Shown here in pieces: positions 2,744 through 61,069 of a stretch of 64,000 nt of DNA. Under the pieces are notes generated by a model. It did not search any database. It saw only the letters and a program-made list of their open reading frames with translations, and was not told where the DNA came from. Source of the DNA: Curvibacter sp. GWA2_63_95. GTDB lineage: Bacteria > Pseudomonadota > Gammaproteobacteria > Burkholderiales > Burkholderiaceae_C. Positions within the stretch are counted from its first letter, which is position 1, and each line of letters starts with the position of its first letter. The DNA lies in contig MGPB01000024.1 in NCBI GenBank assembly GCA_001795455.1, positions 72,015-136,014 of the forward strand, given 5' to 3'. The translations under genes and the position numbers were made by a program.

Positions 2744-4849
2744 CTACGGTGTGCTGGTGGCGGGGGCTGCTGCAGGCGCTGGGGCCGGTGCAGCAGGGCG
2801 CGCGGGCAACACCGGAAGCACGGGAGCCTCGTTGATGGGCACCAAGCTGCTGGGGGCAGGCTGGCTGCTTTGCTGGCCACTGCGCATGAGTTCGTAACGG
2901 TCGGTCGACAGGGCTTGTGTGGCCGCCGCATCGCGCACCACCACCGGCCGCAGAAAGACCATCAGGTTGGTCTTCTTGCGGCTACGTGCCTCGCTTTTGA
3001 ACAGGTTGCCAAAGAAAGGGACATCGGCCAGGCCAGGCACTTTCTCTTCGTTGCCGGCGTACTCGTCTTGCAGCAGTCCACCCAGCACCACCACCGCACC
3101 GTCTTCCACCAGCACATTCGATTCGATGGTGCGCTTGTTGGTGGTGGGGCCGTTGGTGGCGTTGGCCGTTGAGGCCAGCACGCTGGAGACCTCCTGGAAG
3201 ATGGTCAGCTTCACCGTGCCGTTCTCGCTGATTTGTGGTTTCACCTTCAGGGTCAGGCCCACGTCCTTGCGCTCGATGGTCTGGAAGGGGTTGACTGTGC
3301 TGGTGCTGGCCCCGGTGTTGGTGAATTGGCCGGTCACAAAGGGCACGTTCTGGCCAATGACGATCTTGGCCTCCTCGTTGTCCAGTGTCAGCAGGTTGGG
3401 GGTGGAGAGCACATTGCCACTGCCTGACTCTTCCAGAAAACGCGCCAGAAAACCCAGCACGTAAACGCCATTGGTTTTGCTGGCTGCACCGAGGTTGAAG
3501 CCGCGGGCGGGGGCCACCGTGCCTGCCGCACCCTGGGTGGCCAGGCTGATGATGTTCTTGCCTGCGCTGCCAAAGTTGGTGCCCAAGAGGCCAATCACGC
3601 CGTCGCCTGCATTGCCCACAGCACCTTGCCACTGAATGCCAAACTCGGCCGCCTTGTCGGCGCTGACCTCGGCAATCAGGCTCTCCACAAACACCTGGGC
3701 GCGGCGTGCATCGAGCTTGTCGATGACGGCACGCAGCTGGCGGTACTGGGGTTCACTCGCCGTGATGATGAGCGAGTTGGTGCTCGGGTCGGCCTGGATC
3801 TGGCCCCCTGTGCTGGGCTGGCTCGCGGTCCCTGCGGCCGCTGCCCCTGCTGCCGGTGTGGCCGCCGGGCTGCTGCCGCGTGTGTCCGCACTGATGGCGG
3901 CGCGTAGCGTGCCAGCCAGTTGGGTGGCGTTGGCGTTTTTCAGGTAGACCACATAGATGTTGCCTGCTGCACCGTTGCTGGTGTTGGCGCTGGGTTGGTC
4001 CAGCCGCTGGATCAGGGTCTTGGCCAGCGCGAGGCGGGCCTGGTTGGCCGCACGCACGATGACGGCGTTGGAGCGGGGTTCCACCAGGATGGTGGTCTTG
4101 TAACTTGCATCGGCCTGGCCGCCCGGCGCCGCGCCCGCGGGAGCTTCCAGCAAACGGGTGGCCAACTGGGCCAGGTCGGTCGCTACTGCGTGCTGAATGG
4201 GGATGATTTCCAGGTCGGTGGCATTGGGCACGTCCAGCGCCTGCACGATGCGGGCGATGCGGCGCAGGTTGTCGGCGTAGTCGGTGATCACCAGCGAGTT
4301 GTTGCCGGTGTTCACGTTGATGACGTTGTTGGGCGTGATCAGCGGGCGCAGCACAGGCACCAGACTGTTGGCGTTTTCGTGGGTGATCTTGAAGATCTGG
4401 GTCTGGATCTGGCCAGTGGTGACCGGGCCTTTGCCATCGTCGACCGACACGGCGGTGCCTTGCAGCTTGGCGTCGGCCTCGGGCACCACCTTGTCCAGGC
4501 CGTCCACCTGCACCACGGTAAAGCCCTGCATGCGCAGGGTGGTCAGGAACAAATAGTAGGCGCGGGCGGGTGATGCGGGACTGTCGGTGACCAGGGTGAT
4601 GGTGCCCTTGACGCGCGGATCCACCACCACATTGCGCCCGGTGAGGGCTGCCATGGTGCGGGCCACGGCCTCGATTTCGGCGTTGTTGAAGTTCAGCGTA
4701 ACGGGCTCGCCGCGCTTGCCGGCTACTGCCTGGCCCCAGGAATTGGTAGTAAATATGCCGCTAGCCCCCGTGAATAGTGCGCAAGCAGCTATCAAATGCA
4801 TAGCTGCTTGGCGCCATCGGGGGCGAGATGTTGGTAGATGGTGTGGCAT
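2744..4849 (-). CDS. gspD: Type II secretion system secretin GspD
   Basis: Outer membrane secretin of about 701 residues from the chosen ATG at 4849 (an upstream in-frame ATG at 4954 would extend into gspN and is unlikely). After the signal peptide comes an N0 domain beginning VTLNFNNAEIEAVARTMA, then N1-N3 repeats and a C-terminal secretin domain with the typical VPGLADVPFFGNLF segment. An Ala/Pro-rich tail ends the protein. The signal peptide core (HLIAACALFTGASGIF) is encoded by a copy of the dispersed repeat found all over this window. It follows gspN by 4 bp and precedes gspE by 5 bp. Confidence 0.95.
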   Translation of the reverse strand: MPHHLPTSRPRWRQAAMHLIAACALFTGASGIFTTNSWGQAVAGKRGEPVTLNFNNAEIEAVARTMAALTGRNVVVDPRVKGTITLVTDSPASPARAYYLFLTTLRMQGFTVVQVDGLDKVVPEADAKLQGTAVSVDDGKGPVTTGQIQTQIFKITHENANSLVPVLRPLITPNNVINVNTGNNSLVITDYADNLRRIARIVQALDVPNATDLEIIPIQHAVATDLAQLATRLLEAPAGAAPGGQADASYKTTILVEPRSNAVIVRAANQARLALAKTLIQRLDQPSANTSNGAAGNIYVVYLKNANATQLAGTLRAAISADTRGSSPAATPAAGAAAAGTASQPSTGGQIQADPSTNSLIITASEPQYRQLRAVIDKLDARRAQVFVESLIAEVSADKAAEFGIQWQGAVGNAGDGVIGLLGTNFGSAGKNIISLATQGAAGTVAPARGFNLGAASKTNGVYVLGFLARFLEESGSGNVLSTPNLLTLDNEEAKIVIGQNVPFVTGQFTNTGASTSTVNPFQTIERKDVGLTLKVKPQISENGTVKLTIFQEVSSVLASTANATNGPTTNKRTIESNVLVEDGAVVVLGGLLQDEYAGNEEKVPGLADVPFFGNLFKSEARSRKKTNLMVFLRPVVVRDAAATQALSTDRYELMRSGQQSSQPAPSSLVPINEAPVLPVLPARPAAPAPAPAAAPATSTP
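4753..4805 (+). repeat. Dispersed ~50 bp Comamonadaceae repeat, copy 1 (inside gspD)
   Basis: Copy of the repeat reading ATGCCGCTAGCC, then AATAGTGCGCAAGCAGCTAT, then a short hairpin ending ATAGC. On the opposite strand it encodes the GspD signal peptide core. Orientation is given by the AAGCAGCTAT core on the plus strand. Confidence 0.85.
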
Positions 4850-4853
4850 GCAG

Positions 4854-8402: not shown

Positions 8403-9043
8403 GGCAAGGCCCCCGCTGTGTTGCTGCGGGCCCAATCGCGCACCAACGGCCCCATCAGGGGATGGCCTTGCGGCAGGGTGAGCACCAGCCGAATGCCATC
8501 GGGCAGGCTGTTGTTCACTGCGGGGTCTGTGCCAGTGCTCGACAGGGGGTTGCTCCAGGCGCCAGTGCGATAAAAATACACCTGCCATTCGGTCAGGGGC
8601 GTCACGCGGACTTCGCGCCGGTCGGTGCCGTCTTGGGTGGTTTGCGCCCAGGTGTGGGCCTCGTTCCAGGCCAATTGCCAGCCCTCGCGGCTGGTGAAGG
8701 GGGGCGACTGCCAGCGCAGCCACTGGAACTGGCCGTCGCGGTTGGCACGCGTCCAGGCCACAACGATGGCCCCGTCGCTGCCCGTGCTGCCGCTGCGACG
8801 TGTCAGGTGCAGGGCCCGGCCATCCCAGTCCAGGGTGCGCGTCAGAGGCAGCTCCACCAATGCATCCAGGTCCAAGCCCCATTGGGCCAAGCTGGCGTCC
8901 AGTGTCAGCACTTGGTCGGCATGCTGGCGGTTGATGTCCACGGCGGTCTGCATGCTGGACAGAACGCGCCAGCCCAGGGTCGCCATCAAGGCCATGATGG
9001 CCAGTGCCACCAACAATTCGATGAGTGTGAAGCCGCGTTGCAT
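8399..9043 (-). CDS. gspJ: Type II secretion system minor pseudopilin GspJ
   Basis: 214-residue minor pseudopilin with the prepilin signature MQRGFTLIELLVALAIMA (cleavage before Phe, conserved Glu at +5). The soluble domain contains the GspJ pattern GWRVLSSMQTAVD and RREVRVTPLTEWQVYFY. With GspI and GspK it forms the pseudopilus tip complex. Its start is 2 bp after the gspI stop and its stop overlaps gspK. Confidence 0.93.
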   Translation of the reverse strand: MQRGFTLIELLVALAIMALMATLGWRVLSSMQTAVDINRQHADQVLTLDASLAQWGLDLDALVELPLTRTLDWDGRALHLTRRSGSTGSDGAIVVAWTRANRDGQFQWLRWQSPPFTSREGWQLAWNEAHTWAQTTQDGTDRREVRVTPLTEWQVYFYRTGAWSNPLSSTGTDPAVNNSLPDGIRLVLTLPQGHPLMGPLVRDWARSNTAGALP

Positions 9044-9045
9044 GG

Positions 9046-9857: not shown

Positions 9858-9860
9858 GAG

Positions 9861-10336: not shown

Positions 10337-10804
10337 ATGATAATGCGCAGCATGGTTTCTTCCACTACTTCACGATGGGCCCCCAGGCTGGCCGCTTCGC
10401 TGTTGGCGGGGTTGGCGGCCGCTGGTGTGGTCTATTGGGCACTCAAGGTGCCGGTGTCCGGCACGGGCAGCGCGGTTGCAGCAGTGCAGGTCCCCGTGCT
10501 GGCGCCTGACACCGGGCTCGTGGCGCGTGCGCTGGGGGGCTCGGCGGCGCCGGCCGACTTGCCGTCTGCTGTGGCAGCGCCTGTCGCCGCGTCGGCCCGT
10601 TTTGCGCTGGTGGGGGTGGTGGATCAGGCGGGTAGCGGCGTTGCCCTTATTGGGCTGGACGGCAAACCCGCCAAACCGGTGGCCGTGGGCGCCAGCGTCG
10701 GAGAGGGCTGGGTTTTGCGCCACGTGCAAGGCCGCAGCGCCACGCTGGAACGCGAGGGGGATGCGCCCCTGCGGCTGGAGCTTCCACCCAAGATTAAGGG
10801 TTAA
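10337..10804 (+). CDS. gspC: Type II secretion system protein GspC, short form
   Basis: About 155 residues. A short cytoplasmic start and one membrane helix (LAASLLAGLAAAGVVYWAL) are followed by an Ala-rich linker and the homology-region domain (FALVGVVDQAGSGVALIGLD through APLRLELPP). GspC links the inner membrane platform to the GspD secretin. There is no PDZ or coiled-coil domain after the homology region, unlike the enterobacterial protein. Several in-frame starts exist (10313, 10337, 10343, 10352) without a clear ribosome-binding site, so the start is uncertain. It is divergent from gspG. Confidence 0.82.
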   Translation: MIMRSMVSSTTSRWAPRLAASLLAGLAAAGVVYWALKVPVSGTGSAVAAVQVPVLAPDTGLVARALGGSAAPADLPSAVAAPVAASARFALVGVVDQAGSGVALIGLDGKPAKPVAVGASVGEGWVLRHVQGRSATLEREGDAPLRLELPPKIKG

Positions 10805-10805
10805 A

Positions 10806-10856
10806 ATGGCCTCTAGCCAGCGTGGATATTGCGCAAGCAGCTATTATTTTTGTAGC
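10806..10856 (+). repeat. Dispersed ~50 bp repeat, copy 2 (gspC/ilvA convergent gap)
   Basis: ATGGCCTCTAGCC, GGATATTGCGC and AAGCAGCTATTATTTTTG are present, ending GTAGC. The element fills the gap between the convergent gspC and ilvA ends, and on the minus strand it supplies the last ilvA codons and its TAA stop. Confidence 0.85.
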
Positions 10857-12472
10857 TGAAGAAACATCCGATAGACCGGATTTTGTGTTTCTTCGACATA
10901 GGGGTAACCCAGAGTTTCCAGGAATTGCGCGAAGGCTAGGTCATCCGCTTGCGGGACCTGCAAGCCCACCAAAATGCGGCCGTAGTCCGCGCCTTGGTTG
11001 CGGTAGTGGAACAGGCTGATGTTCCAACCCGGGCGCATCAGACTCAGGAACTTCATCAACGCGCCCGGCCGCTCCGGGAACACGAAGCGCAGCAGGCGCT
11101 CGTCCTGCGCCAGGCTGGAGATGCCCCCCACCATATGGCGGATGTGCTCTTTGGCCAGCTCATCGTGGGTCAGGTCCAAGGTTTTAAAACCGTTTTTTTC
11201 GAAGTTCTTGGCCACCTTGGCCGACTCGCCTTTGCCCTGGGTACTCAGGCCCACAAACACATGTGCCTGGGCTGCGTCGCTGATGCGGTAGTTGAACTCG
11301 GTCACATTGCGCGTGCCGCCGGGCAGTTCGCCAATCAGCTCACAAAAGCGCTTGAAGCTGCCGCGCTCCTCGGGGATGGTTACGGCAAACAGCGCCTCGC
11401 GCTCTTCTCCCACCTCCGCCCGCTCGGCCACAAAGCGCAGGCGGTCGAAGTTCATATTGGCGCCGCACAGGATGGCGGCGTAGGTCTCTCCCTTGGTTTT
11501 GTGCGTGGCCACGTACTGTTTGATGGCGGCTACGGCCAGCGCACCGGCTGGCTCCACGATAGAGCGGGTGTCCACAAAGATGTCTTTGATGGCCGCGCAC
11601 ACCGCGTCGGTGTCCACCGTCACATAGTCGTCTACCAGATTGCTGGCAATGCGAAAGGTCTCCTCACCGACCAACTTCACGGCCGTGCCGTCGGAAAACA
11701 GGCCCACGTCCGGCAGCGTCACACGCTGCTTGGCGCCCACGGACTGGATCATGGCGTTGGAGTCATTCATCTGTACGCCGATGACTTTGACGCCCGGCGC
11801 CACCGCCTTGATGTAGTTGGCCACACCCGAGATCAGGCCGCCGCCGCCAATGGCTACAAACACGGCATCCAGGCCGGGGCCGGTTTTGCTGCCGGTTCTG
11901 TGGCCAGACTTGGCCGCCTTGTCCGCGCCCAGGGTCTGTACCTGGCGCAGGATCTCCATGGCCACAGTGCCCTGGCCCGCAATCACGTCCGGGTCATCAA
12001 ACGGGTGCACAAAGGTCAGCCCTTCTTTTTTCTGCAGGGTCACGGCATGGCCGTAAGCGTCCGAGTAGCTCTCGCCAAACAGCACCACCTCGCCACCAAA
12101 ACCGCGCACTGCGTCCACCTTGAGCTGGGGCGTGGTGGTCGGCATCACGATCACCGCACGCACGCCCATGCGACTGGCCGATAGGGCCACGCCCTGCGCG
12201 TGATTGCCGGCAGACGCACAGATCACGCCCTTGGCGATCTGCTCGGGCGGCATTTGTGCCATCTTGTTGTAGGCGCCGCGCAGCTTGAAGCTGCGCACCG
12301 GTTGCTGGTCTTCGCGCTTGAAAAGCACAGTGTTGTGCAAGCGGCGGCTCAGGGCGCGGGCGGGCTCCAGGGCGGTCTCGCTGGCCACGTCGTAGACGCG
12401 GGCTGTCAGAATTTTCTTGAGGTAATCCGCCGGGGTGAGGTGGGGGACAGGGGGCTGTTGGGGGGAACTCAC
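10844..12472 (-). CDS. ilvA: Threonine ammonia-lyase (biosynthetic)
   Basis: 542 residues. PLP-dependent deamination of threonine to 2-oxobutanoate, the first step of isoleucine synthesis. The catalytic domain has the PLP lysine motif RSFKLRGAYNKM (about residue 60), SAGNHAQGVA, and the glycine loop VAIGGGGLISG; two ACT-like regulatory domains occupy the last third, so isoleucine feedback is expected. A roughly 20-residue Lys/Gly-rich insertion (about residues 178-198, ADKAAKSGHRTGSKTGPG) precedes LDAVFV and is absent from the E. coli enzyme as I recall it. The final residues MFLQLQK run into a dispersed repeat. Confidence 0.95.
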   Translation of the reverse strand: MSSPQQPPVPHLTPADYLKKILTARVYDVASETALEPARALSRRLHNTVLFKREDQQPVRSFKLRGAYNKMAQMPPEQIAKGVICASAGNHAQGVALSASRMGVRAVIVMPTTTPQLKVDAVRGFGGEVVLFGESYSDAYGHAVTLQKKEGLTFVHPFDDPDVIAGQGTVAMEILRQVQTLGADKAAKSGHRTGSKTGPGLDAVFVAIGGGGLISGVANYIKAVAPGVKVIGVQMNDSNAMIQSVGAKQRVTLPDVGLFSDGTAVKLVGEETFRIASNLVDDYVTVDTDAVCAAIKDIFVDTRSIVEPAGALAVAAIKQYVATHKTKGETYAAILCGANMNFDRLRFVAERAEVGEEREALFAVTIPEERGSFKRFCELIGELPGGTRNVTEFNYRISDAAQAHVFVGLSTQGKGESAKVAKNFEKNGFKTLDLTHDELAKEHIRHMVGGISSLAQDERLLRFVFPERPGALMKFLSLMRPGWNISLFHYRNQGADYGRILVGLQVPQADDLAFAQFLETLGYPYVEETQNPVYRMFLQLQK

Positions 12473-13668: not shown

Positions 13669-13910
13669 AGAGAGTCTTTCCAGTATGGCCAGAGTCTACC
13701 GGGGCTGACGTTAAGGTGAGCTTGATAGCAGTCAAACAAATTGTTGCAACCCAACAACGGTAACCCGTAAGAACCCTAATCTTTTGCCTGTTTTCTTTGC
13801 CAAACGTCCCCCCGTCTGGTGCAATACATCCAACTTCCTGAATAGGAGGTTGGCCCGGAGTTCCGAACAATCGGTCCGGAGCTCTATGTTTAACCTTGGA
13901 GTATTTCTAC

Positions 13911-14912: not shown

Positions 14913-14950
14913 TTTCTTGCTGGCGTAAGCCAGCTTGAGAGTTAGAAAAT

Positions 14951-19993: not shown

Positions 19994-21562
19994 ATGACAC
20001 GTACCCGTTGTGACCGCACGCCCGCCTGGGGCGCCCTGCAAGCCGCTTTTGATGCCACCGGCCGGGCGCTGGATGTGCGCGAGGCCTTCAAGGCCGACGC
20101 CCAGCGCTTTGGCCGTTTCAGCCAGGAGGCGCCCTATGTGTTCGCCGACCTGTCGAAGAACCGCATTGACGCGGCGACTGAAGCGCTGTTGTTTGACCTG
20201 GCGCGCCAGAGCGGCGTGTTGGAACACCGCGACGCCATGTTCGCAGGCCAGAAGATCAACAACACCGAGCAGCGCGAGGTGTGGCACGTTCTGTTGCGAA
20301 ATCCGCCTGGAGTGCCCGTGGAATATGCGGGAGCAGCTACGGAATTTGTAGCAGGCGAGCAGGCCAAGGTGCATGCCACACTGGACGCCATGCTGGCCTA
20401 CGCAGAGAAGGTGCGTGCCGACCAGGCTATCACCGACGTGGTGAACATCGGCATTGGCGGTTCCGATCTGGGCCCGCAAATGGCGGTGCTGGCGCTGGAC
20501 GCGTTTGCCACCACCGGCAAGCGCCTGCACTTTGTGAGCAATGTGGACGGCCATGAGCTGGCCGCCAAACTGCCGCATCTCAAAGCCGACAGCACAGTCT
20601 TCCTGATTGCCAGCAAGACCTTCACCACCATCGAGACCATGACCAATGCCGCTTCGGCCAAGGCCTGGTTCGAGGCGCAGGGCGGCACCGACATTGCCCG
20701 CCACTTTGCCGCGCTGACCACCAACGTGCCGGCGGCCAATGCCTTTGGCATCACCACCACCTTCGGCTTCTGGGACTGGGTGGGCGGTCGTTATTCCATG
20801 TGGTCGGCCATTGGCCTGCCGATCGCCATTGCCATTGGTTCTGCGGGCTTCCGCGAGTTTTTGGCCGGTGCGCATGCCATGGACGAGCACTTCCGCACCG
20901 CGCCGCTGGAAAGCAATCTGCCGGTGCGCCTGGGCCTGCTGGACGTCTGGTACCGCAATTTCCACGGCTTCACCAGCCGCAGCATTGCGCCGTACCACAG
21001 CGCCTTGCGCCGCGTGCCGGCCTACCTGCAGCAACTGGAGATGGAGAGCAATGGCAAGCGTGTGGACGCGTCGGGCGAAGCGCTGCCGTTTGGCACCTCG
21101 CCCGTGCTGTGGGGCGAGCCCGGCACCAACGGCCAACACGCCTACTTCCAGATGCTGCACCAGGGGACCGATGTGGTGCCCATGGAGTTCATCGCCGTCA
21201 AAAAGGCGCGCCACGACCTGAAGGGCCACCAACCGCTGCTGCTGGCCAATGTGCTGGCGCAAGCCCAGGCTCTGTTGCAGGGCAAGAGCGACGCGGGTGG
21301 CCACAAGCATTTCACGGGCAACCGCCCCAGCACCTTCCTGTTGCTGGACGACCTGACCCCGGCTGCGTTGGGCGCGCTGATTGCGTTGCAGGAGCACCGC
21401 GTGTTTGTCAGCGGCAGCCTGTGGGGCATCAACAGCTTTGACCAGTGGGGCGTGGAGCTGGGCAAGGTGCTGGCCAAGGAGATTGAGCCACGTCTGGCTT
21501 CCGGTGATGTCACTGGATTGGACGGCTCTACCGCTGGCTTGCTGGCACGCTTGCGGAGCTAA
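19994..21562 (+). CDS. pgi: Glucose-6-phosphate isomerase
   Basis: 522 residues. Interconverts glucose 6-phosphate and fructose 6-phosphate. Diagnostic blocks: NIGIGGSDLGPQMA, IASKTFTTIETM, FGFWDWVGGRYSMWSA and QGTDVVPMEFI. Residues about 104-120 (GVPVEYAGAATEFVAG) are encoded by a dispersed repeat copy and make the loop before KVHATLDAML somewhat longer than in E. coli Pgi as I recall it. Likely co-transcribed with tal. Confidence 0.96.
   Translation: MTRTRCDRTPAWGALQAAFDATGRALDVREAFKADAQRFGRFSQEAPYVFADLSKNRIDAATEALLFDLARQSGVLEHRDAMFAGQKINNTEQREVWHVLLRNPPGVPVEYAGAATEFVAGEQAKVHATLDAMLAYAEKVRADQAITDVVNIGIGGSDLGPQMAVLALDAFATTGKRLHFVSNVDGHELAAKLPHLKADSTVFLIASKTFTTIETMTNAASAKAWFEAQGGTDIARHFAALTTNVPAANAFGITTTFGFWDWVGGRYSMWSAIGLPIAIAIGSAGFREFLAGAHAMDEHFRTAPLESNLPVRLGLLDVWYRNFHGFTSRSIAPYHSALRRVPAYLQQLEMESNGKRVDASGEALPFGTSPVLWGEPGTNGQHAYFQMLHQGTDVVPMEFIAVKKARHDLKGHQPLLLANVLAQAQALLQGKSDAGGHKHFTGNRPSTFLLLDDLTPAALGALIALQEHRVFVSGSLWGINSFDQWGVELGKVLAKEIEPRLASGDVTGLDGSTAGLLARLRS
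20305..20352 (+). repeat. Dispersed ~50 bp repeat, copy 3 (in frame inside pgi)
   Basis: Partly diverged copy: CCGTGGAATATGCGG, then GAGCAGCTACGGAATTTGTAG, matching the core and terminal hairpin of the intergenic copies. It is translated as part of Pgi. Confidence 0.7.
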
Positions 21563-22954: not shown

Positions 22955-23601
22955 ATGTGGTGTTTGACTTTGGCGCGGTGCTGTTCACCTGGCGCCCGGT
23001 AGATCTGGTGACTGAATGTTTTCCCGACCGTGCGCCGACGCCCGCGCTGGCCGGCCACCTGGCGCACGAGGTGTTTGGCCATGCCGACTGGCAGGAGTTT
23101 GACCGCGGCACGGTGTCCATGCCCGAGGTCATTGAGCGCACCGTGGCTCGCCTGGGGCTGGACCGCGCTGCGCTGACCAAGTTGGTGGAAAGCATTGGTG
23201 AGCGGTTGGTGCCCATGCCCGAGTCCATGGCGCTGCTGAACCGGCTGTGTGCGCTGCGCACGCAGCCGCAGGTGAATGGCGGCGAGCCGCTGCATCTCTA
23301 TTTCCTGTCCAACATGCCCGTGCCCTATGCGCGCACGCTGGAGCGCCTGCACCCGTTTCTGCGGAACTTCGACGGCGGTATTTTTTCGGGCGATGTGCTG
23401 CTCATCAAACCCGAGCCCGCCATCTACCAGCTGCTGCAAAGCCGCTATGCGTTGGAGCCGGCCAAGACGGTGTTCATCGACGACCTGCTGGGCAACGTCG
23501 AGGCTGCCCGCGCCCAGGGCTGGCACGGCATCCATTTCAAGAATGCCACCCAGGTCACGCAGGACCTGCAGGCCTGGGGTTTAAAGGAAATTGGCCTCTA
23601 G
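22951..23601 (+). CDS. HAD-superfamily phosphatase (YihX-like)
   Basis: 216 residues. HAD motif I is VVFDFGAVLF with Asp6 as nucleophile; the second position of the DxD is Gly, as in E. coli YihX (DLGN). Motif II is the FLSNMPVPYA region, the Lys is in LIKPEPAIYQLL, and motif IV is VFIDDLLGNVEAARAQGW. YihX acts on alpha-glucose 1-phosphate and other sugar phosphates; the substrate here is not determined. Translation is coupled to the upstream YcaQ gene through an ATGA overlap. Confidence 0.85.
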   Translation: MNVVFDFGAVLFTWRPVDLVTECFPDRAPTPALAGHLAHEVFGHADWQEFDRGTVSMPEVIERTVARLGLDRAALTKLVESIGERLVPMPESMALLNRLCALRTQPQVNGGEPLHLYFLSNMPVPYARTLERLHPFLRNFDGGIFSGDVLLIKPEPAIYQLLQSRYALEPAKTVFIDDLLGNVEAARAQGWHGIHFKNATQVTQDLQAWGLKEIGL

Positions 23602-23641
23602 CCCCCGTCGATAGTGCGCAAGAAGCTATCAAAAGCATAGT
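23592..23641 (+). repeat. Dispersed ~50 bp repeat, copy 4 (3' end of HAD gene)
   Basis: TTGGCCTCTAGCCCCC, ATAGTGCGCAAGAAGCTATC, then AAAAGCATAG. It contains the HAD gene stop codon region (CTC TAG), so the repeat terminates this ORF. Confidence 0.85.
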
Positions 23642-23653
23642 GAGCTAGGCGTA

Positions 23654-23825: not shown

Positions 23826-25490
<1,665 letters not shown>

Positions 25491-25499
25491 TTAAGTGAA

Positions 25500-25551
25500 A
25501 TATGCCGCTAGCCCGCATGGATATTGCGCGGCCAGCTATGAATTCAATAGT
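25500..25551 (+). repeat. Dispersed ~50 bp repeat, copy 5 (groS-groL intergenic)
   Basis: ATGCCGCTAGCCCGCATGG, ATATTGCGCGGCCAGCTATG, ending CAATAG. It takes up more than half of the 91 bp spacer inside the groESL operon and would form a small hairpin in the mRNA between the two genes. Confidence 0.85.
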
Positions 25552-25566
25552 GCTTTAAGCCCGGTA

Positions 25567-32353: not shown

Positions 32354-33124
32354 CTATTGTTTCATGAGTAGCAGGTCTTTGACAAACCCCAGGCTGGCGC
32401 TACCGGTGTTGTCGGAATCGGCACCCAGCACAATCGCCAGCAGCGGCGGCACGGTGTCGGTTTCGTCGCCAAAACTGGCCAGAAAGTCAGCCTGCAAATC
32501 GCGCCGCTGGCCGTGCCATTGGCCCAGGGCATCCGAGCCGCTGGCGAGGATGTGCAGGCGCACGCGGCCCGTGTAGGCGTTGGCCAGCAGGGTGCCGGTC
32601 GGCAAGGTGGTGTCCCACACATAACACAGCGTGGCGCCGGGCAGGGCCTCACCGCTCACGCGGCGCGCCAGACGCAGCAGGTTGCGCTCCACAAAGGGGA
32701 TTTTTTCCAGCGGCAGGTCAAACAGGGCACAGACCTTGAGTGCGGCATCGTCACCGTCCTTGCGCCGCAGGTTGGTCGCGGCCAAGGGCTGGTCCAGACG
32801 CCACCGCCATTGCAGAAAGCGGGCACCGGCACCGGGTGGCACGGCATGGCTGACCGTGCCATAACTCTTGTCGCTGCGCAGGCGCAGCACCGACTGGCCA
32901 TCGAGCGGGGTGATGTCGGGCGCCAGCAGCGGCACCTTGTTGCCCGGCAGGCCCACCACGCGCCAGGGCGCGGGCGGCGCGCCTTCTGGGGCCCCCGCAA
33001 AGGGCTGTAGCAAGGGTGGCTCGGGTGTTTGCGCCCAGGATTCAGCGCCCGCCATTGCCCACAAAAATGCACAAAAAATGCCTCTAGCCCTTATGGAATA
33101 TGCGCGAGCAGCTATTGAAAACAT
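32354..33124 (-). CDS. DUF3047 exported protein
   Basis: 256 residues. Starts MFSIAARAYSIRARGIFCAF, a signal peptide whose N-terminal half is encoded by a dispersed repeat; predicted cleavage near ESWAQ. The rest matches the DUF3047 pattern (FLQWRWRLDQPL, DDAALKVCALFDLP, LCYVWDTTLPTGTLLANAYT). The family is uncharacterised; the domain looks beta-rich and periplasmic. It starts 4 bp after the selD fusion and ends 4 bp before the FAD oxidoreductase, so the three form one transcription unit. The upstream extension to 33358 is non-coding overlap with selD. Confidence 0.82.
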   Translation of the reverse strand: MFSIAARAYSIRARGIFCAFLWAMAGAESWAQTPEPPLLQPFAGAPEGAPPAPWRVVGLPGNKVPLLAPDITPLDGQSVLRLRSDKSYGTVSHAVPPGAGARFLQWRWRLDQPLAATNLRRKDGDDAALKVCALFDLPLEKIPFVERNLLRLARRVSGEALPGATLCYVWDTTLPTGTLLANAYTGRVRLHILASGSDALGQWHGQRRDLQADFLASFGDETDTVPPLLAIVLGADSDNTGSASLGFVKDLLLMKQ

Positions 33125-33127
33125 AGC
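33079..33127 (+). repeat. Dispersed ~50 bp repeat, copy 6 (signal peptide of DUF3047 protein)
   Basis: ATGCCTCTAGCCC, TTATGGAATATGCGCGAGC and AGCTATTGAAAACATAGCG. It runs from the selD stop through the DUF3047 ATG and the first 16 codons. Confidence 0.88.
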
Positions 33128-33128
33128 G

Positions 33129-35544: not shown

Positions 35545-37728
35545 TCAGCCGCGTTTCCAGTCGTGGAACTTGCGCACCCATTCCAACAGCTGGTGCGGCT
35601 GGTGCGCACGCTTCCATTCACCGGCCGCGTATTTGTTGGCTTCGGCCAGCGTGGGGTAGGTGTGGATGGTGCCCAGAATTTTGTTGAGGCCCAGCCCGTG
35701 TTTCATGGCCAGCACGTACTCGGCCAGCAGGTCGCCGGCATGGGTGCCCACAATCGTCACCCCCAGAATCTTGTCTTTGCCCGGCACGGTCAGCACTTTC
35801 ACAAAGCCGTGGGCCTCGCTGTCCGCAATGGCGCGGTCCAGGTCGTCGATGCCGTACTTCGTCACCTCGTAGGCAATGCCTTGCTCCTTGGCGTCCTGCT
35901 CGTTGAGGCCCACACGTGCCACCTCGGGGTCAATGAAAGTGGCCCAGGGGATAACGGCGTAGTCGGCCTTGAATTTCTTGAAGTCGCCAAACAGCGCATT
36001 CACCGCGGCATACCAGGCCTGGTGCGCCGCGGTGTGGGTGAACTGGTAGGGCCCGGCCACATCGCCCGCCGCATAGATGTTGGGGTAGATGGTTTGCAGG
36101 TACTCGTTGGTTTGCACCGTCTTGTGGGTGGGAATGCCCAGCTCTTCCAGGCCATAACCCGTGAGCCGCGCACTGCGGCCCACGGCGCATAACAACTGGT
36201 CAAAGGCAATGCGCTTTTCCACACCGGCGTGCTCCACCACCAGCACTTTTTCGCCGTCGACCTTTTCACAGCGCAAGGCCTTGTGGCTGGTGAGCAGGTC
36301 CACACCATCGGCGCGCAGGGCTGCGGCGGCGAGATCAGACACCTCCAGGTCTTCCCGCGCCATGATGCGGGCTGCCATCTCTACCTGGGTGACGTGTGAG
36401 CCCAGCCGCGCAAAGCTTTGCGCCAGCTCGCAACCAATCGGCCCGCCGCCCAGCACCACCAGGCGCCGGGGCACCTCGTCCAGCTTGGCGAATTCGTCCC
36501 ACAGCGTGTCGCTGGTCACATAACCCACTTCATCCAGCCCCGGCAGCGGCGGCACGAAGGGGCGGGCACCCGCGGCGATGACGATGCTGCGCGTGGTCAG
36601 GGTTTGTTTACCGCCGTCATTCAGTGCAATCTCCACCGTCCACGGATTGATGATTTTTGCGTAGCCCTGCAGCACCTCCACGCCCAGGCCGGTGTAACGC
36701 TCCACGCTGTCGTGCGGCGCAATGGCGGCAATCACGTCGTGGATGCGCTGCATCACTTTTTTGAATGAAAAGAGTGCCTGCCCCCCGTCCTCTGTGCGCA
36801 AGCTGCTATGCAAACCATAGCGCTCTGCGTGCTGCATCTGGTGGGCCAGCTTGGCGCTCTTGATCAGCGCCTTGCTCGGCACGCAGCCGTAGTTGAGGCA
36901 GTCGCCGCCCATCTTGTGCGCCTCGACCAGTGTGACCTTGGCTTTGACGGCGGCGGCAATGTAGGCCGACACCAGCCCGCCCGCGCCACCCCCGATGACG
37001 ACGAGGTTGCGGTCAAACGACTTGGGGCGCACCGCATTCCAGCGTGCGTAGACCTGGCGTTTCTGGAGGTAGTTCATGGCAGCCTTTGCAAGTAGGGGGA
37101 ACACACCCAGCAGCACCAGCGCGCCCAGTAGGCCGGGGCTGGCTACGTCCTGCAGGCTGTGGATGTCGGCCAGCTGTGTGCCCGCGTTCACATACACCGC
37201 GGTGCCCGCCAGCATACCCAGCTGGCTGACCCAGTAAAAGGTCCAGGTGCGCAGCGTGGTCAGGCCCATGGCGAGGTTGATCACAAAAAACGGCACCACG
37301 GGAATCAGGCGCAGACTGAACAGGTAGAGCGCGCCCTCGCGCTCTACCCCGGCGTTGATGTCGGCCAGGCGTTTGCCAAAGCGGGCCTGCACCCCATCGC
37401 GCAGCACAAAACGCGCGGCCAGGAACGACAAGGTGGCGCCGATGCTGGAGGCAAACGACACCAGCAGCAAGCCCCAGCCCAGGCCAAAAATGCCGCCGCC
37501 GGCCAGCGTGACAATCGCCGCACCGGGCAGGGACAGGCCGGCCACGGCCACATAAATGGCAAAGTACGCAGCCCGCACCGTCCACGGCTGTTCGGCATAC
37601 AGGGCCGCAAACGCCGCCTGGCTGGACTGCAGGTAGTCCAGCTTCAAGAAGCGGCCCAGGTCCAGCCCCACAAACGCGGCAATGGCCGCGGCCACCACCG
37701 CCAGCAGCACCAGTTTGGACAGCTTCAT
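35545..37728 (-). CDS. VTT-domain membrane protein fused to a MerA-like FAD oxidoreductase
   Basis: 727 residues. Residues 1-235 are a TVP38/TMEM64 (VTT) membrane domain with about six helices and the conserved LSLPGAAIVTLAGGGIFG and FFVINLAMGLT stretches. Residues 240-727 are a class I pyridine nucleotide-disulfide oxidoreductase: FAD motif LVVIGGGAGGLVSAY, redox disulfide GGDCLNYGCVPSK (about 272-284), NAD motif LVVLGGGPIGCELAQ and the C-terminal HTYPTLAEA. The vicinal cysteines of true MerA are missing, so mercury reduction is unlikely. A dispersed repeat is translated near residues 302-318. Starts inside the ynjF stop. Confidence 0.88.
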   Translation of the reverse strand: MKLSKLVLLAVVAAAIAAFVGLDLGRFLKLDYLQSSQAAFAALYAEQPWTVRAAYFAIYVAVAGLSLPGAAIVTLAGGGIFGLGWGLLLVSFASSIGATLSFLAARFVLRDGVQARFGKRLADINAGVEREGALYLFSLRLIPVVPFFVINLAMGLTTLRTWTFYWVSQLGMLAGTAVYVNAGTQLADIHSLQDVASPGLLGALVLLGVFPLLAKAAMNYLQKRQVYARWNAVRPKSFDRNLVVIGGGAGGLVSAYIAAAVKAKVTLVEAHKMGGDCLNYGCVPSKALIKSAKLAHQMQHAERYGLHSSLRTEDGGQALFSFKKVMQRIHDVIAAIAPHDSVERYTGLGVEVLQGYAKIINPWTVEIALNDGGKQTLTTRSIVIAAGARPFVPPLPGLDEVGYVTSDTLWDEFAKLDEVPRRLVVLGGGPIGCELAQSFARLGSHVTQVEMAARIMAREDLEVSDLAAAALRADGVDLLTSHKALRCEKVDGEKVLVVEHAGVEKRIAFDQLLCAVGRSARLTGYGLEELGIPTHKTVQTNEYLQTIYPNIYAAGDVAGPYQFTHTAAHQAWYAAVNALFGDFKKFKADYAVIPWATFIDPEVARVGLNEQDAKEQGIAYEVTKYGIDDLDRAIADSEAHGFVKVLTVPGKDKILGVTIVGTHAGDLLAEYVLAMKHGLGLNKILGTIHTYPTLAEANKYAAGEWKRAHQPHQLLEWVRKFHDWKRG
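36775..36822 (+). repeat. Dispersed ~50 bp repeat, copy 7 (inside the VTT/oxidoreductase gene)
   Basis: GTGCCTGCCCCCCGTCC, TCTGTGCGCAAGCTGCTAT, GCAAACCATAGCG. It lies in frame and encodes YGLHSSLRTEDGGQA in the loop after the FAD-domain helix. Confidence 0.72.
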
Positions 37729-38330
37729 TGGAAGGTTCTCCAGCCCCACCAGATGCGGGTGACGATGGTGATGCCGCACAAGGCGGCAAAGGCATAGGCC
37801 AGCGTGGCAAAGTGCGCGGGCCACAGGCACATGGCCACAAAGAAGGCCAGTGTTTCGGTGGCCTCGGTCAGCCCGCCCAAAAAGTAGAACGATTTGCCCG
37901 GTGTGGCCAGGTCTTGCAGCCCGCGTTTGGCAGCCAAGGTCGCAAAGGCCAAAAAGCTGCTGCCCGTGCCCATGAAGGCGGCCAGCAGCAGCGCTGCAGG
38001 CAGGGCGTTGTTGGCCGGGTCGGCCACGGCAAAGGCCAGCGGAATGCTGGCGTAAAACAAAAAGTCCAGCGTGATGTCCAGAAAGCCGCCCGCATCGGTG
38101 GCCTGCGTCTGGCGCGCCACGGCACCGTCCAGTCCGTCGCACAGTCTTGAAGCCAAAATGGCCACAGCGCCTATGGAATATGCGCCACTAGCTATCAAAA
38201 TTGCAGCGCACAGGCCCAGGCCAAAACCCAGCAAGGTGACGGTGTTGGCCCCCAGCCCGGCGCGTACCAACAGGCGGGCCGTGGCTGTGATGGGCGGGCG
38301 GATCAGGGGGATGGCGTAGCGGTCGAGCAT
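37725..38330 (-). CDS. ynjF: CDP-alcohol phosphatidyltransferase (YnjF-like)
   Basis: 201-residue integral membrane enzyme. The family motif DG..GA.AR.T......GG..D...D is intact (DGLDGAVARQ then GGFLDITLD), so it should bind Mg2+ and a CDP-activated lipid; the alcohol acceptor is unknown. Six helices are predicted. E. coli YnjF, the last gene of ynjABCDEF, has the same size and family. Residues about 41-57 (CAAILIASGAYSIGAVA), part of a membrane helix, are encoded by a dispersed repeat. The stop overlaps the VTT/oxidoreductase start. Confidence 0.85.
   Translation of the reverse strand: MLDRYAIPLIRPPITATARLLVRAGLGANTVTLLGFGLGLCAAILIASGAYSIGAVAILASRLCDGLDGAVARQTQATDAGGFLDITLDFLFYASIPLAFAVADPANNALPAALLLAAFMGTGSSFLAFATLAAKRGLQDLATPGKSFYFLGGLTEATETLAFFVAMCLWPAHFATLAYAFAALCGITIVTRIWWGWRTFQ
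38158..38208 (+). repeat. Dispersed ~50 bp repeat, copy 8 (inside ynjF)
   Basis: ATGGCCACAGCGCC, TATGGAATATGCGCCACTAG, CTATCAAAATTGCAGCGC. Translated in frame as a transmembrane segment of the phosphatidyltransferase. Confidence 0.78.
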
Positions 38331-42202: not shown

Positions 42203-42223
42203 GGGTAAATAGTAGTCAAATTG

Positions 42224-42272
42224 GTCTGCAGCCCATATGGAGTGTGCGCAAGCAGCTATTAAAAATATAGCA
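42224..42272 (+). repeat. Dispersed ~50 bp repeat, copy 9 (upstream of ynjC)
   Basis: CTGCAGCCCATATGGAG, TGTGCGCAAGCAGCTATT, AAAAATATAGC. It lies in the divergent gap between ynjC and the SDR gene, 22 bp before the chosen ynjC start, and is open in the ynjC frame (IFLIAACAHSIW). Confidence 0.87.
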
Positions 42273-42391
42273 TTCAAACGCACTGCGATAGGCGCTTTCT
42301 CTGCGCTGCATCAATGTACGGTGCACGACAGTTGAACACGATAGAAGCTGTCATTGTCGGATGTTCCCTTACACATCTTCAGGAGAAAGCC

Positions 42392-47239: not shown

Positions 47240-47280
47240 AAACACCTCCCGGAGTGTGCTCTGGGAGGTGTTTGCATTTT
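47240..47280 (+). terminator. Terminator of the OMP gene
   Basis: 11 bp perfect stem AAACACCTCCC / GGGAGGTGTTT with a 12-base loop, followed by GCATTTT. Confidence 0.85.
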
Positions 47281-47291
47281 CTTGGGCAGTT

Positions 47292-47341
47292 TGACCGGTA
47301 GCCAGCATGGAATATGCGCAAGCAGCTATGAAAATAATAGC
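47292..47341 (+). repeat. Dispersed ~50 bp repeat, copy 10
   Basis: GACCGGTAGCCAGCATGG, AATATGCGCAAGCAGCTATG, AAAATAATAG. A well-preserved intergenic copy between the OMP terminator and the DUF2835 gene. Confidence 0.9.
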
Positions 47342-47379
47342 AAATCCTGCGAAGGTGAAGTGACGCTAGCATCTCCTCC

Positions 47380-50479: not shown

Positions 50480-50609
50480 TCGCTAACTCCATATGAAACG
50501 TATACGAATTATATGCGTTTCGTATGGTCTTGGTGCATGCACCACCTAGCGCATGGCAAAGACAAGGCTGCGCCAAGCATGCGCCGGAAGCTCCGATTTT
50601 TGAATGAAA

Positions 50610-50660
50610 TATGCCTCTAGCCAGCGCGTGATATGCGCAAACAGTTATCAAAATAATAGC
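50610..50660 (+). repeat. Dispersed ~50 bp repeat, copy 11
   Basis: ATGCCTCTAGCCAGCG, TGATATGCGCAAACAGTTATC, AAAATAATAGC. Lies in the gap between the ParD-like gene and the end of the Hsp70 gene. Confidence 0.87.
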
Positions 50661-50663
50661 AAA

Positions 50664-51929
50664 CTAGAACTGCTGCACGGCACCGGCCCAAGCCAACCCG
50701 GCGGCCACACCGCCAAAGCGGTTGCCTTCCACCAGCGTGGCCTGCGGCATGGCTTGGCGCAGCGCCTCGATCAGCGGGCGCAGGGCCGAGGAACCGCCGG
50801 TGAGGTAGACCGCATCCACCCCTTGCAATCCGGCCGCCGCCACGCAGTCCTGCGCGCACTGCACCACCTGCGCCAGCGACTGGTGCAAGGCAGCTTCCAT
50901 GTTCACGGCATCCACGATGGGCGTCAGGCTGCGGTCCAGAAAGTCGAGTTGCACCACCGCGCTCTCGCCGCTGATGGAGCAGGCAATCTTGGCGGCTTCC
51001 ACGCTGGCCAGCATGCGGTGGCCGTGTTGTTCTTCCAGCGCGTCCATCAGGCGGCGGTGCAGGGTCTGGTTGGTGTAATCCGTCCACAGCTCCTTGGCAA
51101 AGTGCATGGCCTTGCGCGTGTAGGCCTGGTGGATCAGGTGCCAGGTGCTCAGGTCAAAAAACACGCTGCTGGGCACAATGCGCCCGCCAGTGCCCACGTG
51201 CTTGTAGCCCAGGTGCGGCATCACGGTGGTCAGGTCCAGCAGGCGGTCAAAGTCGGTGCCGCCAATATGCACGCCGGTGGTGGCCAGAATGTCGGCGCTG
51301 CGGTCGCCCAGCGTGCTGCGCTCAGGGTTGAGGCGGATGACGGTGAAGTCGGACGTACCGCCGCCTATGTCCACCACCAGTGCGGTGGTTTCCTGTGTCA
51401 CACGTTGCTCATAGTCCAGCGCCGCGGCAATTGGCTCCATCTGGTAGGCGATGTGGGTGAAGCCGGCTTCCAGCGCGGCACGGCCCAGCGTCTCCTGCGC
51501 CAGCGCATCACGCTCGGCATCGTCGTCCACAAAGTGCACCGGGCGGCCCAGCACGGCGTGGGTCAGGGGCTGGCCCACATGGGCTTCGCAGCGGCGCTTC
51601 AACTCCTTGAAGAACAGCACCACAATGTCAAAGAAGCGGATGCTTTTGTCGCCCACGGCGGTGTACTCGTCCATCAGGCGGCTGCCCATCAGGCTTTTGA
51701 GCGAGCGCAGCAGCCGGCCCTCGGTGCCATTCAGGTAAGCCTGCATGGCGGCCGCGCCATACAGCACGGTGTGGGTTTCGCTGGCAAAAAACAGCGCGGT
51801 TGGCATTTCGGCCTTGGCACCGTCCAGCGGGATGACCTGTAAGGCGCCGTGCGCGTCAATCAGCGCACAGGCGGAGTTCGAGGTGCCGAAGTCAATGCCC
51901 AGCACCAGGGGGCGAGCGGTGCTGCTCAC
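50664..51929 (-). CDS. Hsp70-family protein, YegD-like
   Basis: 421 residues: only the actin-like nucleotide-binding fold, with no substrate-binding domain. Phosphate 1 loop LGIDFGTSNSACAL, phosphate 2 loop VVDIGGGTSDFTVIR and the adenosine block VDAVYLTGGSSALRPLI are clear. E. coli YegD is the closest characterised name; its client and role are unknown. Its start overlaps the esterase stop by 4 bp, so the two form an operon. Confidence 0.9.
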   Translation of the reverse strand: MSSTARPLVLGIDFGTSNSACALIDAHGALQVIPLDGAKAEMPTALFFASETHTVLYGAAAMQAYLNGTEGRLLRSLKSLMGSRLMDEYTAVGDKSIRFFDIVVLFFKELKRRCEAHVGQPLTHAVLGRPVHFVDDDAERDALAQETLGRAALEAGFTHIAYQMEPIAAALDYEQRVTQETTALVVDIGGGTSDFTVIRLNPERSTLGDRSADILATTGVHIGGTDFDRLLDLTTVMPHLGYKHVGTGGRIVPSSVFFDLSTWHLIHQAYTRKAMHFAKELWTDYTNQTLHRRLMDALEEQHGHRMLASVEAAKIACSISGESAVVQLDFLDRSLTPIVDAVNMEAALHQSLAQVVQCAQDCVAAAGLQGVDAVYLTGGSSALRPLIEALRQAMPQATLVEGNRFGGVAAGLAWAGAVQQF

Positions 51930-59713: not shown

Positions 59714-59728
59714 GCTGCCAAATCACAC

Positions 59729-61069
59729 ATGATTGCTATCAAATCAGCAGCTGCTCGCGCAGTGTTTACGGGCGCTACAGCCCTATTTTTTATAAATTCT
59801 GCATGGGCAGGCATTCCCATCCAGCATTGGACACAACCGGGTGGCGCGCGCGTCTACCTGGTGGAGAGCCCGGCCATTCCCATGGTGGATGTGCAGATTG
59901 ACCTGGACGCAGGCGGGCGCCGCGACCCGGCCGACAAGCCGGGGCTGGCCAGCCTGATGGCGTCGAGCACTTCCAATGGTGTGCGGGCCAGTGGCGCTGC
60001 GCCCGCCATGGACGAACACCAACTCAGCGAAGCCTGGGCGGACCTGGGGGCCTCGTTTGGCGGCAGCGCGAGCGCGGACCGCATGAGTTTTGCCCTGCGC
60101 AGCCTGACCTACCCGGACCTGCTGGACAAGGCGGTGGGTTTGGCGGCACGCCAGTTGGGTGAGCCCTCGTTTCCCGAAGCTCCGTGGTTGCGCGACCGCC
60201 CCAAGCTGGTTGCCAGCCTCAAGGAAGCCAACACCCGGCCCGCCACTCTGGCGGCACGCGCCTTCAACCGCGCGGTGTACGGCAGCCATCCCTATGGCTG
60301 GGAGATGACAGAAGAGAGCCTGCTGCGCACCAGTGTGGCGGACCTGCGCGCGCTGCATGCACGCGCTGTGCGGGCGTGTGATGCACGCGTGAGCATCGTG
60401 GGGGCGCTCAACCGTGCCCAAGCCGATGCGCTGGTGACGCGCTTGCTGGCCCGTCTGCCCAAGGCCCCCTGCGCACCACAAGCCGTCGTGCCCGAGGTGC
60501 AGCCGCTGGCCCAGGCGTCTGAGCAGCGCATTGCCTTTGCCTCGGCACAGGCGCATGTGCTGCTGGGGCAGCCCGGCTACCAGCGCAATGACCCGGACTT
60601 TTTTGCACTCACTGTGGGCAACCACATCCTGGGTGGCGGTGGCTTCACCGCCCGCCTGACCGAAGAGGTGCGCGAGAAGCGGGGCCTGACCTATAGCGTC
60701 TACAGCTACTTTGCACCGGGCCTGCATGCGGGGGCCTTCACCATCGGCTTGCAAACACGGCCAGACCAGGCAGAGCAGGCGCTGACGTTGGTGCGAGACG
60801 TACTGACTAAGTTTGTGACCGAAGGCCCGACCGAGAAGGAACTGCAGGCGGCCAAAGACAACCTCATCGGTGGTTTTGCCTTGCGTCTGGACAGCAACAG
60901 GAAGCTGCTGGACAACGTGGCCAACATCGCCTGGAATGGCCTGCCACTGGACTACCTGGACACCTGGACTCAGCGGGTGGAGCGGCTCACCGTGGCCGAC
61001 GTGCGCGCTGCGTTTGCGCGCAAGGTGCAGCCCGCCAATCTGGCCACGGTGGTGCTGGGCGCACCCTGA
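59729..61069 (+). CDS. M16 family peptidase, non-catalytic partner
   Basis: 446 residues. The HxxEH position is replaced by PGLASLMAS, so zinc binding is lost. It keeps the partner's Arg/Tyr pair region (REKRGLTYSVYSYF) that completes the active site of the catalytic subunit. The signal peptide MIAIKSAAARAVFTGATALF, cleaved probably after NSAWA, is encoded by a reverse-oriented dispersed repeat. Forms the heterodimer with the preceding gene. Confidence 0.92.
   Translation: MIAIKSAAARAVFTGATALFFINSAWAGIPIQHWTQPGGARVYLVESPAIPMVDVQIDLDAGGRRDPADKPGLASLMASSTSNGVRASGAAPAMDEHQLSEAWADLGASFGGSASADRMSFALRSLTYPDLLDKAVGLAARQLGEPSFPEAPWLRDRPKLVASLKEANTRPATLAARAFNRAVYGSHPYGWEMTEESLLRTSVADLRALHARAVRACDARVSIVGALNRAQADALVTRLLARLPKAPCAPQAVVPEVQPLAQASEQRIAFASAQAHVLLGQPGYQRNDPDFFALTVGNHILGGGGFTARLTEEVREKRGLTYSVYSYFAPGLHAGAFTIGLQTRPDQAEQALTLVRDVLTKFVTEGPTEKELQAAKDNLIGGFALRLDSNRKLLDNVANIAWNGLPLDYLDTWTQRVERLTVADVRAAFARKVQPANLATVVLGAP
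59735..59790 (-). repeat. Dispersed ~50 bp repeat, copy 12 (signal peptide of the M16 partner)
   Basis: Read on the minus strand: a GGGCTGTAGCGCCC segment, TAAACACTGCGCGAGCAGC, then GATAGC. Diverged but collinear with the other copies along its length; the first 20 codons of the second M16 gene come from it. Confidence 0.75.

Follow-up and report, generated by a model that had tools for sequence, protein, structure and literature searches.

The element and its copies in the window

The window, by which we mean the whole analysed stretch of 64,000 nucleotides, belongs to a Rhodoferax-like host in which hundreds of copies of a motif of around 68 bases are scattered within and between genes. The dense dispersed family of twelve window copies that the initial annotation described is real (Table 1). 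All twelve were recovered by a covariance model at 50-71 bits, as they should be by construction, the model having been trained on those 12 places, while the next-best match in the window scored 19 bits. The conserved unit is longer than the ~50 bp given originally, as it runs from position -9 to +59 (~68 bp) with abrupt edges. Seven or so copies had been placed in or across coding sequence; by our own gene calls three are wholly inside genes (those starting at 20288, 36757 and 38143), and several others touch gene ends. One of these genes, pgi (glucose-6-phosphate isomerase), was identified from a PDB match.

Table 1. Element copies in the window (each spanning motif positions -9 to 59), their surroundings and the state of the corresponding site in other genomes (G numbers)
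Feature	Positions	Strand	Setting	Score (bits)	Site in other genomes
Element copy	4740..4808	+	Intergenic, touching a minus-strand gene whose start is uncertain	69.7	Occupied in G001, G015
Element copy	10792..10860	+	Convergent gap, overlapping both gene ends	63.9	
Element copy	20288..20356	+	In pgi, reading ..NPPGVPVEYAGAATEFVA..	60.3	
Element copy	23577..23645	+	3' end of plus-strand gene	68.4	Occupied in G034, G007, G001
Element copy	25487..25555	+	Flanked by two minus-strand genes	62.6	Occupied in G034, G007, G001, G015; unoccupied in G032, G035
Element copy	33063..33131	+	Flanked by two minus-strand genes	70.8	Occupied in G034, G007; G001 without covariance-model match, weak matrix score 27
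Element copy	36757..36825	+	Within minus-strand gene	50.7	Occupied in 4 relatives
Element copy	38143..38211	+	Within minus-strand gene	54.2	Occupied in G034
Element copy	42207..42275	+	Divergent gap	69	
Element copy	47277..47345	+	Intergenic	64	
Element copy	50596..50664	+	Flanked by two minus-strand genes	65	
Element copy	59731..59799	-	Flanked by two plus-strand genes; sole minus-strand window copy	57.8	Occupied in G034, G007, G001; G015 without covariance-model match, weak matrix score 26

Number, orientation and placement of the copies

In the host genome (G000) a strict core pattern was matched 74 times and its backward reading not at all, and the covariance model gave at least 150 matches. 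A weight matrix of 69 columns (threshold 0) found 84 copies on the 560-kb contig C21 and none in the reversed sequence, which is far above chance. Over the sampled host contigs the total came to 148 copies in 0.99 Mb (84 + 39 + 25, the last 25 counted at a slightly different threshold), and extrapolation to the host genome gives around 580.

The 11:1 excess of plus-strand copies noted at first exists in the window and disappears genome-wide: the strict copies divide into 34 and 40 by strand, and the sample of 134 copies into 76 and 58. Among 62 strict copies in G007 no orientation with respect to the replichores was found, and a replication-oriented signal was rejected. Copies within genes made up 60 of the 134, against 84.5% of random placements. 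Convergent gaps held 19 copies (50 gaps of at least 50 bp) and divergent gaps 2 (101 gaps); tandem gene pairs followed no orientation rule (30 copies in the same orientation, 23 in the opposite one). The copies inside genes are tolerated with open frames, as initially proposed, and two of the six reading frames hold 50 of the 55 full-length ones. The spacing of copies was more even than expected on contig C24 (CV 0.57 versus 0.96) and, without its 72-kb gap, on C21 (0.76 versus 0.98); it was not on C30, nor on C21 with the large gap included (1.21).

The preference for gene 3' ends and convergent over divergent gaps could point to a structured RNA or intrinsic terminator, but the missing orientation rule and the large share of copies within genes do not fit such a function. 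Moreover, the A-rich hairpin of the initial annotation is not maintained by base pairing: the covariation score was 0.114 as compared to 0.142 in shuffles, with 499 of the 500 shuffles scoring at least as high, and the strongest dependencies were between adjacent columns. In Rfam no window match was obtained at gathering scores. An RNA hairpin or terminator was rejected on orientation and the missing covariation and must be considered highly improbable.

Conservation at orthologous sites and dialects

The comparison with G034, another species of the genus, is one between species. At 43 of the 46 comparable sites the element was present in the same orientation; one site was cleanly empty, corresponding to an 84-bp length difference, and one was flipped. 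Occupied and empty sites had been put forward as a sign of mobility, and this distribution does not provide one. Orthologous occupancy was complete in G007 (6/6), G001 (6/6) and G015 (5/5), although two of these sites are weak.

Within 42 G034 ortholog pairs the 11-column core differed in 2.8% of the comparisons and the variable columns in 42.2%. In 25 genes, fourfold sites in the core (columns at least 85% conserved) were changed in 9 of 99 cases, those elsewhere in the element in 45 of 121, and those in the flanks in 35.9% of 5,889. The cores are constrained copy by copy and, since synonymous core sites are held inside genes, selection or drive acts on the DNA itself.

The sequence also differs between lineages. 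Position 17 is a C at 29 of the 42 host sites and a G at 37 of the 42 G034 orthologues (25 pairs C/G in host and G034, none G/C), and the consensus takes other forms in other genera, so that each lineage has its own dialect. Restriction avoidance was dismissed as the cause of the position-17 shift, considering that AGCGC is not depleted in the host outside the elements (observed/expected 1.08; elements masked in the host, G034 unmasked); TAGCGC (0.89) and AGCGCT (0.78) are mildly low there.

Insertions, native sequence and the RAYT family

The original interpretation of the copies was that of a mobile or REP-like element of very small size. Given the shared sites, the constrained cores and the in-gene sites without insertion, this is not supported, and the copies have the appearance of a signal that is maintained throughout the genome and does not jump. 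We consider it quite unlikely, too, that they descend from a mobile family (REP/RAYT-like or RPE-like) which expanded long ago in an ancestor and whose copies were domesticated afterwards where they stood. The relevant comparisons were made at in-gene sites, the only ones usable for an insertion test. As compared to the element-free genome G035, the length differed at 7 of 12 such sites, which would suit mobility, and the net length change was zero at the other 5. Against distant homologues, the motif in an RlmI-type protein lies over native coding sequence without an insertion (E. coli YccW), and Maf is gapless across it relative to BCAL2394, though it exceeds E. coli YhdE by four residues at this place. 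Element matches occur at the pgi position in 18 of 80 related loci from several Comamonadaceae genera. Some loops with a full copy are longer (138 bp in L169 and 150 bp in L222, versus 63-66 bp in five Sphaerotilaceae-side rows), again in favour of a mobile origin, as is the clean empty site in G034; the idea that the pgi copy is a clean insertion was nevertheless dropped, as the distant PGI chain 4em6 aligns there with a single one-residue gap. The sharing of 43 of the 46 comparable sites with G034 argues against mobility, as does a search of plasmids and phages that gave no match, a weak test with one element copy against each.

The RAYT-type gene that the initial annotation had in mind does exist in the host, with an element copy (34 bits) after its stop codon, and similar stretches were seen by eye elsewhere. 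This could be read as a trace of mobilisation, but the family does not track the copies. Among 41 genomes of the genus, 17 were element-rich (their counts being lower bounds), 7 had 1-20 matches and 17 had none; the RAYT family (PF01797) was found in 39 of the 41 and equally often in element-rich (16/17) and element-free genomes (16/17). RAYT as the mobiliser was therefore rejected. At 21 RAYT loci (the host and 20 others, two of which, L087 and L090, have a different paralogue) the downstream bases contained the same gene start in 11 cases, presumably that of a gltB-like gene. In G007, G034 and G029 the residue that we take to be the catalytic tyrosine is, by eye, a phenylalanine.

Comparison with known repeats and signals

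DNA uptake sequences are known as DUS in the Neisseriaceae and USS in the Pasteurellaceae. The element shares with them the hundreds of copies in and between genes, the favoured frames, the dialects and, probably, the change in place; it differs in its length, in that its uptake role is putative and in that ComEC does not track it. Like REP/REPIN sequences with their RAYT, it is a short dispersed repeat with a copy after the stop codon of a RAYT-type gene; unlike them, it shows no pairing constraint, lies in genes in 60 of 134 cases, is stable across species and occurs in a genus whose element-free members have RAYT as well. Rickettsia palindromic elements are insertions, short repeats that leave the frames of genes open. 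The element resembles them in the latter respect, but some of its in-gene sites show no insertion.

A literature search by sequence string returned nothing related by title among the papers listed, and one on repeats of Comamonadaceae, Rhodoferax and Acidovorax returned the betaproteobacterial repeat element BRE and a Cupriavidus genome paper. According to the parts of PMC3110155 describing it, BRE is dispersed in Bordetella and Comamonadaceae, with some copies in genes as for our element; it is ~90 bp long with 69% G+C in Bordetella, sometimes tandem and present in at most 29 copies per genome. Our element is AT-richer and, comparing by description, identity with BRE was rejected on composition, arrangement and copy number (~580 versus at most 29). 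The Acidovorax form of the motif, on the other hand, is already in print, unnamed. PMC5217627 lists the spaced motifs GCTTAT(N)5AAGCG of Acidovorax ebreus (114 copies) and ATAGCT(N)22CAAAAG of Polaromonas naphthalenivorans (125 copies) as separate short pairs, mostly intergenic, to which no function was given and which were not joined into one family. The former fits the element copies of Acidovorax facilis exactly; of the latter, ATAGCT occurs at a fitting spacing and the second half agrees with the consensus in 4 of 6 letters. Both, like the element, are found preferentially at the ends of genes and in convergent gaps.

A possible signal for DNA uptake

Our tentative explanation is that the ~68-bp motif is a genome-wide recognition signal (~580 sites by extrapolation) with a role akin to that of DNA uptake sequences, an unusually long label of the organism's own DNA. 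This reading is based on the core constraint including synonymous positions, the in-gene sites without insertion, the dialects, the division into genomes that are rich in copies or (nearly) devoid of them, and the lack of an orientation rule; the even spacing on C24 and most of C21 counts for it as well. A DNA-binding protein acting in trans would read the motif, at best guess a type IV pilus competence receptor that prefers motif-bearing DNA. Homologous recombination of the imported DNA would keep restoring the sites and would let changes of dialect sweep across them, and once the reader is lost from a lineage, the sites there would decay.

Part of the evidence counts against uptake. No candidate receptor for the motif was found, and ComEC (PF03772) fails to tell the groups apart, as it was found in 13 of 17 element-rich and 15 of 17 element-free genomes; the element-rich genomes without it are G012, G020 and G030, which are 76-88% complete, and the 99% complete draft G026. 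Known uptake sequences are 9-11 bp (length from PMC4212676), so the motif is far longer. Many sites of intermediate strength would be expected if sites were born gradually by substitution, and the weight matrix gave few. The uneven spacing on C30 and full C21, the seven length differences relative to G035, the longer Maf, and the empty and flipped sites in G034 count against uptake, too. Finally, the 19.5 kb examined of Verminephrobacter aporrectodeae (L217) contained no copy.

The main rival, which we regard as somewhat unlikely, is that the copies are sites of a sequence-specific chromosome-organising or nucleoid protein of the Comamonadaceae, with ordinary selection maintaining every single site. 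The dialects would then have shifted through the coevolution of receptor and site, and element-free genomes would have lost the protein. The per-site constraint, the random orientation, the dialects and the copy-rich-or-none pattern fit this equally well, and competence genes would be unneeded, matching G026. It sits less well with the median strength of ~70 bits (on a matrix trained on those same copies), far above the recognition need of a 4-Mb genome, or with the lack of replichore orientation in G007, and a candidate protein was not found.

The uptake explanation would connect to observations within the family. Transformation in Acidovorax and Verminephrobacter is selective for species or sequence and in Verminephrobacter needs type IV pili, and the passages of PMC4212676 concerned name no signal for this selectivity. 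Our literature search found nothing that joins DNA uptake sequences with the Comamonadaceae. It is therefore conceivable, and somewhat less probable than the uptake role as such, that the motif constitutes the first self-recognition system of the DNA-uptake type in this family, ~68 bp long, with dialects and with ~600 sites kept against codon preference even in enzyme genes, and that it explains the selectivity of both genera.

That the motif is kept at orthologous sites across species, including synonymous positions, points to a reader of DNA that acts on the whole chromosome in a family which is large and environmental. Should the motif serve to organise the chromosome, it would reveal a class of very long binding sites. 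If it is an uptake signal, one more lineage would have self-recognition in transformation, the published species barriers would be explained, and the natural dialects would help to locate the receptor.

Copy number and consensus of the repeat unit

A covariance model built from the twelve dispersed copies described in the initial annotation recovered all 12 at 50-71 bits, with the next match in the window at 19 bits, which bears out that description. In the host genome (G000, 3.88 Mb) a strict pattern gave 74 matches vs 0 for the reversed pattern, and the model gave at least 150. The profile of 110 ungapped copies has abrupt boundaries at positions -9 and +59 and a consensus of roughly AATTTnnnGTCAAATnGGCCTCTAGCCCCCGTGGAATATGCGCAAGCAGCTAYYAAAWTnnATAGCAATC. 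The weight matrix derived from this profile matched 84 times in the 560 kb of contig C21 (0 times in reversed C21), 39 times on C24 and 25 times on C30. The genome-wide profile search proposed initially has thus yielded many copies, 148 in the 0.99 Mb sampled, which extrapolates to about 580 in the genome. Divergence between copies is large (mean pairwise identity 56%). The hairpin that had been proposed within the unit was rejected: covariation of the inner palindrome is below that of shuffled columns, the strongest column dependencies are between adjacent columns, and Rfam gave no match in the window at gathering scores.

Genomic placement and spacing

Using our own gene calls, 134 copies were placed, comprising 118 of 138 matches from one set (the 20 weakest left out) and 16 of 22 from another (three of the other six were on another contig, three were weak). 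Inside genes lie 60 of the 134, vs 84.5% of random placements. Convergent gaps hold 19 copies and divergent gaps 2, with 50 and 101 such gaps of at least 50 bp available, respectively. Two of the six reading frames account for 50 of the 55 full-length in-gene copies. Gene direction is not followed (tandem gaps: 30 same, 23 opposite), and the 62 strict copies of G007, another genome of the genus, show no replication-linked orientation. Spacing is evener than random on C24 (CV 0.57 vs 0.96) and indistinguishable from random on C30. On C21 it is less even than random when a 72-kb gap is included (CV 1.21) and evener without it (0.76 vs 0.98). This gap, at about 298-370 kb, holds no elements and is low in G+C, and its middle 40 kb has almost no homology to the compared stretches of G034, an element-carrying species of the genus; from its sequence it is probably an acquired island. 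That the elements are sites of a chromosome protein is, in our view, plausible but less likely than the uptake-like signal considered below.

Other features in the window
Feature	Window position	Strand	Remarks
Second repeat: G+C-rich large hairpin with conserved loop (..GGCGGGCTCATNNTGCCAAACGCGCAGAAATCGCCCGCC..)	21591-21671		Matches also in G000, G034, G009 and G015
Four stretches with apparent prepilin signal (GFTLIELL-type)	8975-10267	-	Possibly type II secretion pseudopilins
Two neighbouring genes, starts 80% identical over 95 nt	13896-16365	+	Probably duplicated putative porins (the porin name is our guess)

Site stability, constraint and lineage-specific forms

Orthologous places were compared only where both flanks align. 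In G034, 43 of 46 sites were occupied in the same orientation (C24 8/8, C21 35/38); of the other three, one is flipped, one carries equal-length non-element sequence in a gene and one is cleanly empty. The flipped site (C21 52648) is intergenic and occupied in both genomes in opposite orientations. All compared sites were occupied in G007 (6/6), G001 (6/6) and G015 (5/5), including one weak site in each of the latter two (score 26-27) that the model had called empty. The element-free relatives G032 (2/2) and G035 (1/1) were empty. Among element-carrying genomes, the comparison of occupied and empty sites suggested initially returned mostly shared ones.

At 42 ungapped pairs with G034, mismatches affected 2.8% of cells in the 11 columns that vary least between paralogues vs 42.2% in variable columns; the host side is biased toward good cores because its sites were picked by the model, and the G034 sites were chosen by their flanks with a low score threshold only. 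In 25 genes, fourfold-degenerate positions of the core (columns with conservation of 85% or more) had changed in 9 of 99 cases, vs 45 of 121 for other fourfold sites of the element and 35.9% of 5,889 in the flanks. Since the core sites rarely changed, the constraint acts on the DNA itself, and the peptide is not its sole target. Adjacent mismatch pairs were in excess (306 vs 241 expected), so some changes arrive in short blocks.

Position 17 is C in 29 of 42 host sites and G in 37 of 42 G034 orthologues; 25 pairs read C/G and none G/C. Both genomes have G at 12 sites, half of which differ at position 16. The contrast persists when positions 16-17 are left out of detection (C in 63/84 on C21, G in 66/77 in G034). 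Elsewhere, G007 has G (12/13), G015 has C (8/10) and G001 is mixed (8 G, 7 C). AGCGC itself is not depleted in the rest of the host genome; AGCGCT is mildly low. Stretches of Polaromonas, Curvibacter and Acidovorax/Xylophilus have consensus forms of their own (7-19 sites each).

Origin of sites and distribution

The unit had initially been suggested to be a very small mobile or REP-like element. Of 12 in-gene sites comparable with G035, five have no net length change, at 43-57% residue identity across the element, whereas length changes of -5 to +10 residues are seen at the remaining seven. Aligned with E. coli YccW, an RlmI-type methyltransferase that carries a strong copy has no insertion across the element; YccW is two residues longer in that alignment. 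Maf is gapless there vs BCAL2394 (presumably a Burkholderia locus name) but exceeds E. coli YhdE by four residues. The pgi loop has one single-residue gap vs the distant PGI 4em6; in some cases the loop is longer when pgi carries a full copy, which makes insertion possible at some sites. Such alignments suggest that at some in-gene positions the sites formed in place rather than by insertion; there they count against mobility, and the seven sites of differing length leave room for it. A domesticated mobile family we consider improbable.

Of 80 related loci, 18 have the pgi copy at the corresponding position, among them Rhodoferax, Polaromonas, Curvibacter, Variovorax and Xylophilus records. 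On a pgi tree of 89 rows (presence, matrix score > -20; three rows left out; the decayed G022 copy counted as absent) its presence takes 16 changes vs about 23 in shuffles, which fits an old site with many losses, repeated gain also being possible. With strict filters and a model built from the forms found here, 17 of 41 genus genomes had at least 134-135 matches, 7 had 1-20 and 17 had none. Among 200 genomes of the order, host included, five had matches (at most 27 scored): four of the same family, one of them with a single match, and one outside it, also with a single match. In 750 kb of G035 a single stretch scored above 0 by the matrix (22.2). Plasmids and phages, each searched with one copy (a weak test), gave no match.

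Candidate readers

The RAYT-type transposase gene looked for at the suggestion of the initial annotation does exist (L074 9938-10717, host contig C8). It precedes a gene that we take to be gltB-like, an arrangement found at this locus in many genus genomes, and in the host an element copy and GTCCC...GACCCC repeats lie 3' of it. What we presume to be the catalytic Tyr reads Phe in G007, G034 and G029. The family does not track the elements, being equally common in element-free genomes, and was rejected as mobiliser. ComEC does not tell the two groups apart: it is present in 13 of the 17 genomes rich in elements and in 15 of the 17 that lack them, and element-rich G026 (99% complete) has no match. 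No reader protein was found among these candidates.

Relation to DNA uptake sequences

Among the unexplained spaced motifs published in 2017, one pair fits the Acidovorax form and a Polaromonas pair fits in part only; Rhodoferax ferrireducens has the most pairs of all genomes listed there (PMC5217627). A limited literature search found no work that unites the Acidovorax and Polaromonas pairs or assigns them a function.

In the same family, Acidovorax temperans is reported to be transformed by own-species DNA only (PMC4212676). Verminephrobacter uptake requires type IV pili and is cut about 10-fold by foreign DNA at 100:1; raising the ratio as far as 1500:1 brought no further reduction, a pattern interpreted by the authors as selective uptake (PMC4212676). 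Acidovorax facilis, likewise among the species tested (PMC4212676), has the motif in its Acidovorax form close to pgi. The motif length and the ComEC result count against an uptake signal. Uptake sequences share the same set of traits, namely sites both within genes and in the gaps between them, permissive frames, constraint at the DNA level, dialects and a rich-or-none occurrence, and we tentatively favour the possibility that the elements are an uptake-like signal.
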